A stretch of 64,000 nt of DNA, from contig NZ_PHQQ01000001.1 in the NCBI RefSeq assembly GCF_002909235.1, forward strand, positions 1 to 64,000, written 5' to 3'. Position 1 is the stretch's first letter, and each line of letters starts with the position of its first letter. Shown here one piece after another: positions 11,481 through 53,920 of the stretch. The notes below the pieces were generated by a model. That model was not told the DNA's origin. It was given only the letters and a program-made list of their open reading frames with translations, and made no database searches. Origin of the DNA: Arenibacter catalasegens (lineage in GTDB: Bacteria; Bacteroidota; Bacteroidia; Flavobacteriales; Flavobacteriaceae). A program made the position numbers and the translations under genes.

Positions 11481-12692
11481 CTATTCGTTAATTAAAAAGC
11501 TTTGCTCTAACTTTTGCATATCCTCACTTACCTTTCTTTCAATGACTTTGGCATAAATCTGGGTTGTCGATATTTTGGAATGACCTAATAATTTAGATAC
11601 TGTTTCTATAGGTACTCCATTACTCAAAGTGACCGTTGTAGCAAAAGTATGCCTGGCGATGTGAAAAGTTATATTTTTAGTTATTCCGCATACGTCTGCT
11701 ATTTCTTTTAAATATGAATTTAGCTTTTGATTCGATATCATTGGAAAAAGTCGATCCTTTATTATTGATTCTGGATGGGCTTCATATTTTTTGATGATGC
11801 ACAGTGCTTTTGAGAGTATTGGGATTTTCATGGGTATACTAGTTTTTTCTCGCTCGGCATAAATCCATTGTTTTCCATCGATACCAGTGCATAAATTTTT
11901 AGTCGATAAATTCATCACATCCCCATAAGATAATCCTGTATAGCAACTAAAAACAAACAAATCTTTAATCAATTGTAATCTAGTAATGGTAAATAGTTTG
12001 TTTTCTATGGCTTGTAATTCTTGTAGCGTCAAATAGGTTCTTTCTTTCTTCTCGTATTTGGCTTCAAATTTTATAAAGGGATCTTTACTTAGCCATTCCA
12101 TTTTATAAGAAAGGCTAATCATTTTCCTTAGACGTTCTATGTGTTTCATGACCGTATTGTTTCCCATAGACTTTTGACCTCTTAAATAGCGTTCAAAATC
12201 GATAATAAACTTATAATTCAACTCGCTTAAGAACATATCGGTGGTGCTATGTTTTTGCTTTAGAAAAAGAAAAATATACTTGTGGGTAGTAAAGTAGTTC
12301 TTCTGTGTTCCCCAGCGGAGGGTAGATTTCATATGCTCGTTATGATACTTGATAATATCTGTGATTGCATACCTATTTTGATCTGTTCCTAAAAAGTGTG
12401 CTTTGAGAAGATTTGAAGTAACAAACTTTCTTTCTCTTTTAAGATTTTGATAGGCTTCAAAAAGTTGAGAATTGACTTGTTTAAGATAAGTATTGACTTT
12501 TTTGATGTCATCACTTAATCCTTTTAATCGATTCTTCTTTGCATCCCAATCTGAAATTAAGATTTTTTGCTTTAATGAGAGCTCTGCTCTTTTACCATCT
12601 ATGGTAATTCTAGCATAAAGAGGTGCTTCTCCGTTTTTGGCACTGGCAAGTTTTAGCCAAAACAGAATACTGAAGGTGTTTAAAGTTTTCAT
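11481..12692 (-). CDS. Tyrosine recombinase / integrase, IntDOT-like
   Basis: The 403-residue protein has an N-terminal arm-binding domain (about 1-100), a SAM-like core-binding domain (about 105-210) and a catalytic domain. Catalytic segments seen are HIARHTF (His-x-x-Arg), LLGHSK (His) and QIYAKV (nucleophile Tyr). The usual first Arg is replaced by Ser in TGLSYGDV, as known for the Bacteroides integrase IntDOT. The gene lies 204 bases from the 3' end of tRNA-Pro and reads away from it. GGTAACCGAA motifs near both ends of the element are candidate arm-type sites. It is the only intact gene of the element. Confidence 0.92.
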   Translation of the reverse strand: MKTLNTFSILFWLKLASAKNGEAPLYARITIDGKRAELSLKQKILISDWDAKKNRLKGLSDDIKKVNTYLKQVNSQLFEAYQNLKRERKFVTSNLLKAHFLGTDQNRYAITDIIKYHNEHMKSTLRWGTQKNYFTTHKYIFLFLKQKHSTTDMFLSELNYKFIIDFERYLRGQKSMGNNTVMKHIERLRKMISLSYKMEWLSKDPFIKFEAKYEKKERTYLTLQELQAIENKLFTITRLQLIKDLFVFSCYTGLSYGDVMNLSTKNLCTGIDGKQWIYAEREKTSIPMKIPILSKALCIIKKYEAHPESIIKDRLFPMISNQKLNSYLKEIADVCGITKNITFHIARHTFATTVTLSNGVPIETVSKLLGHSKISTTQIYAKVIERKVSEDMQKLEQSFLINE

Positions 12693-12895: not shown

Positions 12896-12908
12896 GTCGG
12901 GGTGGCAG
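12896..12908. repeat. Putative att site, right copy (within tRNA-Pro)
   Basis: This is the right copy of the 13-base repeat at 10797-10809. It overlaps the 3' acceptor and T-arm bases of the intact tRNA-Pro gene. Confidence 0.55.
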
Positions 12909-12971
12909 GATTCGAACCTGCGACCTCCGCGTCCCAAACGCGGCGCGATAACCGGGCTACGCTACACCCCG
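12897..12971 (-). tRNA. tRNA-Pro (anticodon TGG)
   Basis: The minus strand folds as a complete tRNA. The acceptor stem CGGGGTG pairs with CACCCCG, followed by discriminator A. The anticodon arm is CCGCG-TTTGGGA-CGCGG with anticodon TGG, and the T arm has loop TTCGAAT. CCA is not encoded. The gene is the intact member of a local set of three tRNA-Pro-like sequences and is the presumed integration target of the recombinase element at 10797-12908. Confidence 0.96.
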
Positions 12972-12995
12972 AACTAGTTATCTATTTTCTTTCCT

Positions 12996-13094
12996 GGGGT
13001 GGTCACGCCCTAAGCGTGACGACCTCCTCGTCCCAAATATTTTGTTTTAATGACCGGGCGAAACCTCACTTGCCTTCGGAGTGTTATCCCCGAA
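12996..13094 (-). pseudogene. Altered tRNA-Pro-like copy with substituted arms (copy 2)
   Basis: Read on the minus strand it keeps the tRNA start TTCGGGG, CCCGGT of the D arm, TTTGGGAC of the anticodon loop, GAGGTCG and a CCACCCC end. The T arm is replaced exactly by hairpin TCACGC-N5-GCGTGA (13003-13019). The D arm carries an imperfect palindromic insertion, and the anticodon stem is destroyed (AT-rich). The 5' half forms the last ~15 codons of the GIY-YIG gene. It cannot be a functional tRNA. Confidence 0.7.
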
Positions 13095-13322
13095 ATGGTC
13101 ATCTATATAACGTTTTGCTCTTCTTTTCTTTATCCTGTGTTCTAAAACAATTGCTTCCGAACGCGACAAGACCTCAATTTGCAAAACTAACACCCAAGGC
13201 GCTCCACCCTTTGTAGAAGGAACAACACCAAGGTTATGTCTTATCAATCTTTTTCTAATATCAGCAGTTTGACCTACGTAATATCTTGAACGTTTTTCGC
13301 TATATAAAATATAAACGAACAT
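13047..13322 (-). CDS. GIY-YIG nuclease family protein between tRNA-Pro-like copies
   Basis: The protein has 91 residues. A GIY-YIG domain is seen with FVYILYS and YYVGQT at the N-terminus, the conserved Arg in DIRKRL, and a probable catalytic Glu in IVLEHRIKKR. This is the small single-domain YhbQ/UPF0213-like type, related to UvrC and homing nucleases. The start is 15 bases after the 3' end of tRNA-like copy 3. The normal family end is reached near residue 76, and the last ~15 residues are encoded by tRNA-like copy 2. The gene lies in the same direction as tRNA-Ser upstream and tRNA-Pro downstream, so it may depend on tRNA promoters. Confidence 0.85.
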   Translation of the reverse strand: MFVYILYSEKRSRYYVGQTADIRKRLIRHNLGVVPSTKGGAPWVLVLQIEVLSRSEAIVLEHRIKKRRAKRYIDDHFGDNTPKASEVSPGH

Positions 13323-13336
13323 ATACTATCTTTCTT

Positions 13337-13452
13337 AGAGTGGTCACGCCCAAATCGCGACGACCTCCGCGTCCCAAACGCGGCGCGATAATAACGCCTT
13401 GCGTTACAAACCGGGTGAGACCTGCCACGCCTCAGGCGTGGTACACCCCGAA
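13337..13452 (-). pseudogene. Altered tRNA-Pro-like copy with hairpin insertions (copy 3)
   Basis: A 30-base block (13361-13390) covering the anticodon arm and variable region is identical to the intact tRNA-Pro (12921-12950), and TTCGGGGTGTA and CCCGGTT of the 5' half are kept. Three foreign palindromes occupy the arms: CCACGCC-TCA-GGCGTGG (13425-13441), TAACGC-CTT-GCGTTA (13392-13406), and an imperfect TCACGC-type hairpin in the T-arm place (13344-13360). The acceptor 3' strand is mutated. It directly precedes the GIY-YIG gene. Confidence 0.72.
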
Positions 13453-13490
13453 ATGGCAAAACCATCTCTACATTACTACATTAAAAAAAG

Positions 13491-13578
13491 CGGAGAGACA
13501 GGGATTCGAACCCTGGGTACCCTTTTGGGGTACGACGATTTAGCAAACCGTTCCTTTCGGCCACTCAGGCACCTCTCC
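13491..13578 (-). tRNA. tRNA-Ser (anticodon GCT)
   Basis: This 88-base class II tRNA has acceptor GGAGAGG/CTCTCC-G, an anticodon loop with GCT, a long variable arm TACCC-CAAAA-GGGTA and T loop TTCGAAT. It is intact and lies upstream of the tRNA-Pro-like cluster on the same strand. Confidence 0.96.
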
Positions 13579-53591: not shown

Positions 53592-53607
53592 TGTCTCATT
53601 AAAAAAA

Positions 53608-53920
53608 GCAGGTCATAAGCCGGATTCTGTTAACCTTGAAAAAATTCAAAATCTCCTTATCATTTATCTAGGCCAAAGGTTGCCCAATGGCTCCAACCGC
53701 CTACCCTTCAGCTCGAGCGTGCAGCCCTCAAACACTGATTTACATGGCGTTGCACCGTATAGAGTTTACCTGGTTTCACTACAGCATAACCTGTACATTC
53801 TTTCTGTTGCACTTGTCCTCATCTCTCGACGGACGGGCGTTACCCGCTATACTGCACTATGGTGTCCGGACTTTCCTCCCCCCGCAAAATACGTGGAGCG
53901 ATAAGGCGACCTGCTGCCGC
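53608..53920 (-). ncRNA. rnpB: RNase P RNA
   Basis: The minus strand contains the conserved P4-region GGGGGGAGGAAAGTCCGG, ends with a 3' ACAGAATCCGGCTTATGACC strand that pairs with the 5' part, and has GCAGCAGGTCGCC near the 5' end matching GACCTGC at the 3' end. Length about 313 bases fits a type A RNA. A T7 run (53601-53607 on the other strand as A) terminates it. Confidence 0.93.

Follow-up and report, generated by a model that had tools for sequence, protein, structure and literature searches.

We analysed a 64,000-nucleotide stretch of Arenibacter catalasegens (Flavobacteriaceae; RefSeq assembly GCF_002909235.1, contig NZ_PHQQ01000001.1, positions 1 to 64,000), hereafter the window, in which a small GIY-YIG nuclease gene lies between two altered copies of the gene for proline transfer RNA (tRNA), some arms of these copies being exchanged for short palindromes. 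An earlier note made from the sequence alone had read the arrangement as a homing-like element that uses tRNA-Pro as its site and promoter. All features lie on the minus strand, and in the direction of that strand the order is tRNA-Ser(GCT), the first altered copy (R1), the GIY-YIG open reading frame (ORF), the second altered copy (R2) and the intact tRNA-Pro(TGG). They are listed below with the basis of each assignment in brackets.

13490-13578, minus strand: tRNA-Ser(GCT), the upstream neighbour (ARAGORN; Rfam 49.4 bits)
13337-13452, minus strand: R1, hairpin-swapped tRNA-Pro-like copy 1 (sequence comparison)
13425-13441, minus strand: R1 hairpin replacing the 5' D-arm strand, CCACGCC-TGA-GGCGTGG on the minus strand (pattern position)
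13392-13406, minus strand: R1 hairpin within the D loop, TAACGC-AAG-GCGTTA (pattern position)
13343-13361, minus strand: R1 T-arm hairpin, degenerate, GTCACGC..GCGTGAC (position; alignment A3)
13047-13322, minus strand: GIY-YIG nuclease ORF, 91 amino acids (PF01541, E 5.2e-11; alignment A1; structure model)
12996-13094, minus strand: R2, hairpin-swapped tRNA-Pro-like copy 2 (sequence comparison)
13003-13019, minus strand: R2 T-arm hairpin, TCACGC-TTAGG-GCGTGA (related stems conserved in alignment A3)
12896/12897-12971, minus strand: intact tRNA-Pro(TGG), the downstream edge of the element (ARAGORN; Rfam 67.8 bits)

The intact tRNA-Pro at 12897-12971 and the two altered copies proved to be as the earlier note had described them, and the block shared with the intact gene, given there as 30 bases, is the 31-nt anticodon-arm block of R1 at 100% identity. 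In R1 the tRNA 5' end, the complete anticodon arm and some of the D loop are retained; palindromes have replaced or filled its T arm, its D loop and the 5' strand of its D arm. R2 is decayed over its 5' (D-arm) half and its only clean palindrome is that of the T arm, so the claim that tRNA arms are replaced by palindromes stands for R1, where the T-arm form is degenerate, and for the T arm of R2, and fails for the D-arm half of R2. Neither copy was called as a tRNA by ARAGORN and both fell below the Rfam gathering score. The nuclease gene does lie between the copies, its start being 14 nt behind R1 and its last 16 codons (stop included) running into R2.

Two more arrays were found in the same genome, C25 with two units and C19 with three, each unit being about 320 bp long. 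Their units stand head to tail and end in an intact tRNA-Pro(TGG) and an intact tRNA-Pro(GGG), respectively, and at all three loci of this genome the tRNA is interrupted at the same point, GGTCG/CAGGTTC, just before the T-arm CAGGTTC. The T arm is substituted by a TCACGC..GCGTGA hairpin in the TGG units, and a hairpin with the same arms substitutes for the anticodon arm in the GGG units. Each array holds a single intact tRNA; of all their hairpin copies, one still scores as a tRNA (34.6 bits). In the 5.45-Mb genome the pattern TCACGC-N2-6-GCGTGA has 8 sites, 6 of them inside GIY-YIG/tRNA-Pro units, and the reversed control pattern has none; ARAGORN finds no tRNA around the remaining two. Within the window, CACGC-N2-6-GCGTG (two sites) and TAACGC-N2-6-GCGTTA (one site) are confined to this locus. 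Purely dispersed palindromes are ruled out by these counts in window and genome, so that one of the two refuting results named in the earlier note, palindromes scattered with no link to tRNA arms, did not appear for the TCACGC type, and chance resemblance is ruled out by the genome-wide pattern count and by shuffles. A different palindrome, TCCCGA-N2-10-TCGGGA, has 29 dispersed sites in this genome as against 2 for its control (for example C2:109636 and C25:10233), and several of its copies are TCCCGATAGCTATCGGGA, a sequence that also fills tRNA-remnant arms in other genomes.

The window protein has one Pfam domain only, PF01541 GIY-YIG (E 5.2e-11); its nearest relatives in the same genome are 79 residues long, and the one nuclease gene of such an element encodes 80 to 90 residues. 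Across the 46 aligned sequences of A1 the residues S8, Y15, G17, R25, H29, E61 and K65 are invariant, including those that we take to be the GIY-YIG catalytic residues, and the structure model is confident (mean predicted local distance difference test, pLDDT, 89.2). By profile comparison the closest solved chains are UPF0213 proteins (E 2e-15) and SLX1 (E 6.5e-9), and by fold comparison the UPF0213 protein 1zg2 (E 8.6e-4) is the single match at or below 0.001, followed by SLX1 at 1.9e-2 and, weaker still, by the I-TevI and UvrC catalytic domains. As GIY-YIG is the only domain detected in the window protein, a structure-selective mode of action is considered.

Several other identities for the gene were tried and rejected. 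A group I intron is contradicted by Rfam, which listed no intron family for the window or for 19 further loci, and matches to a group I intron endonuclease by NCBIfam were partial and below the cut-off in four of six proteins. No phage relative of the window protein (80 residues used) was found by tblastn at E<=1e-5 in 50,697 phage records, and PHROG homing-endonuclease matches (E 1.5e-4 to 3e-6) were obtained for two of six proteins. As for known defence systems, PADLOC gave partial matches of 16.6-18.2 bits in two of four proteins and none for the window protein.

The window protein alone was compared against 199 genomes of the family, giving matches in 55 of them, and all 132 listed matches were kept and merged into 96 loci. 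Of these, 81 have a tRNA on the same strand no further than 500 bp away, as do 77 of the 88 that have at least 500 bp of flank on both sides, with no antisense tRNA beside any of the 96 or at any locus of the three sets counted. For UvrC, the housekeeping GIY-YIG protein used as control, one of 30 loci had any tRNA at all within 1.5 kb. Among named genomes, a set that overlaps the family set and was searched with Pro-type members, the best 80 of 242 relatives showed a same-strand tRNA within 500 bp in 70 cases and a tRNA-Pro within the stretch in 68. Beyond the family, a profile built from members of these loci matched 197 of 295 class-draw genomes and 92 of 148 phylum-draw genomes at E<=1e-8, and the best-scoring loci were checked for tRNA. 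From the best 30 class loci, 26 lie outside the family of the window (4 set aside) and 22 of them have a same-strand tRNA, the other four carrying tRNA-like pieces by eye; in the phylum draw a same-strand tRNA is present at 10 of 12 loci outside the class, making 32 of 38 loci outside the family. The homing-like element tied to a tRNA gene that the earlier note had proposed is supported in relatives: most of the related GIY-YIG loci examined stand beside a same-strand tRNA, and most of the exceptions read show tRNA-like pieces, so that the other refuting result named in the note, relatives of the gene lacking tRNA-like flanks, did not appear.

Of the 11 exceptions with full flanks, L135 and L021 have tRNA matches of 35.3 and 28 bits (the latter just below the gathering score), and L092, L116, L119, L141 and L143 hold pieces resembling the tRNA 3' part by eye. 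The others lie at protein genes, L120, L129 and L138 at a sugar-nucleotide epimerase/dehydratase gene and L123 at a different kind of protein gene. At the first three the nuclease ORF parts a 5' stub, which stops at a GGAGF motif, from a long ORF whose Pfam epimerase/dehydratase domains are nearly complete. The two ends of the element make up a short inverted repeat, with one mismatch at L120 (ACCCGTGAAAT against ATTTCACAGGT) and at L129 (ACCCGTGAAAT against ATTTCACCGGT), and a perfect one at L123 (ACCTGTGAAAT/ATTTCACAGGT). Judged by their arrangement, the protein-gene loci appear to follow the same layout logic without a tRNA. Besides, the units at L092, L119, L141 and L235 lie by eye beside lone tRNA 3' ends, as would result from the insertion of an island between tRNA and element.

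Two layouts recur among the 96 loci. Type I loci have a copied tRNA 5' part, then the ORF, then the intact tRNA, whereas type II loci begin with the intact tRNA, continue with the ORF and end with a copied tRNA 3' part; 51 loci are of type I, 42 of type II and 3 have no assigned type (21 labels were set by hand). The test for remnants could be applied to 80 of the 96 loci and that for hairpins to 93, the others lacking an assigned tRNA or having too little sequence. The tRNA copy across the ORF scored above all 100 shuffles at 69 of the 80 testable loci (type I 42/45, type II 27/35), and remnants hold stretches that are 100% identical to the tRNA. At several type II loci the ORF is placed after the terminator-like hairpin of the tRNA and this hairpin is duplicated together with the remnant. 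In type I the stop codon of the ORF lies inside the intact tRNA at 26 of 45 loci, where RNase P cleavage at the tRNA 5' end would strip the stop from the message. Some Pro remnants (L002, L009, L010 and L013) retain complementary acceptor ends.

As the duplicated terminators of type II regions inflate plain stem counts, GC-rich stems were required in the hairpin test. Perfect stems of this kind of length at least 6, absent from the tRNA, occur on 64 of 93 remnant sides, compared with 6 of 90 and 6 of 88 for the control stretches further out, and those of at least 8 on 31 of 93, compared with 0 of 90 and 1 of 88. By eye the place of the hairpin goes with the isotype, being the T arm in Pro(TGG), the anticodon arm in Pro(GGG) and Val, and the D loop in type I Arg and Asn. 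For alignment A3 of the T-arm hairpin in Pro(TGG) remnants, 41 segments passed the search expression (32 items skipped) and 33 were aligned, 32 of them distinct, the eight left out including L213 and L217, which are not remnants; five of the seven pairs are invariant and 99.6% of cells pair, while the loop varies. Terminators were rejected as an explanation of these hairpins, since in the Pro remnants read no T run stands behind the T-arm hairpin. Among the 41 Pro units in which a plain anticodon arm was readable in remnant and local intact tRNA alike, the two stems agree in 39 (shuffled mean 20, maximum 29), an agreement that shows no direction, and hence no donor tRNA half was traced. Taken together, the agreement with the local tRNA and the conserved hairpins indicate that the remnant is in part derived from the target and in part conserved with the element.

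Eleven tRNA isotypes are occupied among the family loci, tRNA-Pro being one of them, and the lineage of the protein goes with the isotype. On the protein tree (94 rows, without the truncated proteins L131 and L135; 86 rows labelled with 12 states, of which the epimerase gene is one) there are 20 isotype changes as compared with a minimum of 49 in 200 label shuffles, and 9 changes of layout type as compared with a shuffled minimum of 22. With the tRNA-Ser(GCT) at 13490-13578 as marker of the syntenic Ser-Pro site, the 18 genomes of the genus, that of the window included, comprise 13 empty sites, 3 inserts lacking the ORF and 2 bearing it (one at a contig end). Among the ORF-less inserts, L073 retains a complete hairpin copy, and L065 and L074 have in common with the element about the first ten tRNA bases only, with some 90 bp of other sequence. 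Tandem arrays occur at 25 of the 96 family loci, with 2-6 units whose neighbours are 63-100% identical and whose length across the measured arrays is 300-389 bp; in one class-level genome (G322:C9:906043-910392) ten GIY-YIG copies follow each other about 457 bp apart with equal or nearly equal scores.

Apart from these features, a tyrosine recombinase gene with an Arm DNA-binding domain (11481-12692, minus strand) adjoins the other side of the tRNA-Pro, and in C19 an ORF with a similar start (by eye) lies downstream of tRNA-Pro (L008, from about 2067). One tRNA gene may here have two users, the GIY-YIG element at its 5' side and an integrase at its 3' side. Unlike in a tRNA-targeting integrative element, which contains its integrase gene and has att repeats, the integrase gene is outside the unit, beyond the tRNA, the only ORF of the unit is the GIY-YIG gene, and a second exact copy of the tRNA 3' end is absent from the window. 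Elsewhere in the window there is an ordinary RNase P RNA (bacterial class A) gene at 53601-53917 on the minus strand (205.1 bits).

The architecture is real, recurrent and specific rather than a single oddity, and it looks like that of a widespread and unusually small mobile element. From what was observed, namely the architecture, the tRNA association, the isotype specificity, the empty, ORF-less and occupied alleles, the arrays and the hairpin conservation, we propose, with a probability of roughly two in three, a minimal one-gene, target-regenerating homing-like mobile element that amplifies in tandem. The unit would consist of the GIY-YIG endonuclease gene and a partial tRNA copy with certain arms swapped for tight hairpins, and would occupy a tRNA gene at a clade-specific place such that a complete tRNA survives at one edge, the downstream one in type I and the upstream one in type II. 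The nuclease would break a tRNA gene that is without the element, and repair would copy the element from the donor through tRNA identity on both sides. Later breaks with out-of-register repair would give tandem arrays, whose growth is possible because the intact tRNA, that is the target, persists beside the element; the host would survive on the intact tRNA that is left. Most likely the hairpins do work for the element, as their conserved stem suggests a positive function, and perhaps they are a structured DNA site for a nuclease of the branched-DNA type. The protection against re-cutting that the earlier note had tentatively ascribed to them cannot come from the arm swaps alone, because an unchanged intact tRNA adjoins the element. 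The use of tRNA-Pro as promoter is plausible for the layout of the window; in type II the ORF is behind the tRNA and, at several loci, also behind a terminator-like hairpin. On the whole, the interpretation in the earlier note is supported in part, namely as to the homing-like element bound to a tRNA gene.

Several points weigh against this proposal. Cutting, homing, the role of the hairpins and expression from the tRNA promoter are what we infer, and no movement, cutting or expression was observed. The adjoining intact tRNA keeps the whole presumed target, so that re-cutting needs explaining, and a lone catalytic domain of 80 residues comes without an evident DNA-recognition domain. There was no remnant signal at 11 of 80 loci, including all four of the His type, and 29 of 93 remnant sides had no hairpin by the criterion used; the T hairpin is missing in several Pro elements (L174, L177, L178, L184, L193 and L195, from Christiangramia and Gillisia), which have a TCCCGC..GCGGGA anticodon-arm hairpin instead. 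The agreement of 39 in 41 anticodon stems fits import no better than it fits local duplication or gene conversion, and the ORF-less inserts L065 and L074 may be of another nature. Few columns underlie the tree and its inner support is weak, 45 of its 91 inner branches being open, with the 21 locus labels set by hand, and the tRNA check in class and phylum covers only 38 loci outside the family out of all matches.

Against the proposed mobile element the alternative that survives best, though we consider it unlikely, is a tRNA-locus gene adopted by the host, in which nuclease and hairpin-bearing tRNA-like RNA would be transcribed together with the tRNA as a unit of regulation or RNA processing, the nuclease acting for example on RNA or tRNA precursors, and would have spread by vertical descent and duplication. 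The absence of antisense tRNA at every locus of the three counted sets would suit it, as would the complementary acceptor ends of the four Pro remnants and the ORF stop inside the tRNA at 26 of 45 type I loci, by which tRNA maturation and protein production may interfere. A host function is harder to reconcile with the patchy occurrence in the genus (13 of 18 sites empty) and in the family (matches in 55 of 199 genomes), with the use of eleven isotypes, with the similar layout at protein genes, and with type II, where the remnant is 3' of the ORF and the ORF at several loci behind a terminator-like hairpin.

We give a slim chance to a segmental amplification device, in which the nuclease would amplify or convert the tRNA locus for dosage or defence. 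The part of PMC13096335 covered describes a precedent in phage SegB, which amplifies a segment with tRNA-Tyr and segB, and the tandem arrays at 25 of 96 loci are in keeping with it; however, the own-genome arrays hold one intact tRNA each, and even with the hairpin copy that scores 34.6 bits the dosage of functional tRNA seems not to rise.

It is improbable that a small nuclease mobilises short palindromes for which the tRNA copies are mere collecting places, in the manner of repetitive extragenic palindromes (REP) and their REP-associated tyrosine transposases (RAYT). Palindromes do flank the nuclease gene, remnants in other genomes contain TCCCGATAGCTATCGGGA and CCTGCCTGCCGGCAGGCAGG, and the TCCCGA type is dispersed over 29 sites in the genome of the window, control 2; but the palindrome of its own elements is not dispersed (6 of the 8 sites are in elements), the palindromes take the place of entire tRNA arms or occupy the D loop, their positions going with the isotype as judged by eye, and the unit has no Y1 (HUH) transposase, its single Pfam family being GIY-YIG. 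That tRNA-targeting islands or duplications merely left tRNA fragments, with a harmless GIY-YIG gene carried along and hairpins that are decay or terminators, is highly improbable: the adjoining tyrosine recombinase gene and some loci resembling distal island ends (by eye) would agree with such a by-product, but GIY-YIG genes beside same-strand tRNAs recur at class and phylum loci, the T hairpin stem is nearly invariant with a variable loop, the stretches of remnant identical to the tRNA at 100% are unlike random decay, and the window has no second exact tRNA 3' end.

If the homing-like mobile element is the correct reading, many small GIY-YIG genes of Bacteroidota would be a class of mobile elements that parasitise tRNA genes without killing them, rather than stray repair genes, and would parallel, in bacteria, the fungal mitochondrial endonuclease elements that regenerate their target. 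They would also suggest a way, open to testing, in which tandem arrays arise, would supply a natural collection of arm-swapped tRNA-like folds, and would make testable the question of whether a nuclease without a separate DNA-binding domain chooses its target by DNA structure. A bolder version, which we put forward tentatively and regard as rather doubtful, is a phylum-wide class of autonomous elements of about 0.3 kb whose lone SLX1-like GIY-YIG domain would recognise hairpin or cloverleaf DNA, with tRNA genes chosen because their DNA folds and the arms with 7-nt loops rebuilt as tight palindromes that would be the structured end of the element. Among the best-listed titles and abstract openings of an open-licence library, without subscription journals and preprints, none describes GIY-YIG genes nested in bacterial tRNA copies, which is not proof of absence.

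As for known systems, the nearest solved relatives by profile are the UPF0213 proteins (E 2e-15), and the entries found are named hypothetical. The structure-selective SLX1 nucleases have a similar GIY-YIG domain (profile E 6.5e-9) and possess an additional C-terminal domain and an SLX4 partner, whereas the window ORF has 91 residues and one domain; no search for a partner was made. REP/RAYT systems combine a small nuclease-type gene, the Y1 transposase, with flanking short palindromes, and the likeness to the present elements lies in this flanking, while the domain here is GIY-YIG and the palindrome of the element is not dispersed in its own genome. Among free-standing GIY-YIG endonucleases of T-even phages, SegB of phage T6 amplifies tRNA-Tyr with its own gene in tandem, and, as far as the portion covered goes, resembles the present case in being an intron-less GIY-YIG gene beside tRNA genes (PMC13096335). 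As in a free-standing GIY-YIG homing endonuclease, we find a catalytic domain with conserved residues and both occupied and unoccupied alleles of the same site. The elements described here differ from SegB in the lone catalytic domain of about 80 residues in bacterial genomes, in lineages that are largely of one isotype and in the hairpin-swapped target copy.

The mORF elements of fungal mitochondria (Allomyces atp6; Glomus atp6, atp9, cox2 and nad3) are endonuclease ORFs that carry a replacement gene end, and the covered passages of PMC3630166 describe, as here, an endonuclease ORF with a partial target copy inserted in a conserved gene and the displaced native part beyond the ORF. Their targets are the C-termini of protein genes in mitochondria and those passages mention no hairpin-swapped target copy, whereas the elements here are mostly at tRNA genes, about 0.3 kb in size, bacterial and found in tandem arrays. 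The arrangement with the ORF between a displaced target part and a complete target is nevertheless common to both, being present at 69 of 80 loci and at the three epimerase/dehydratase genes.
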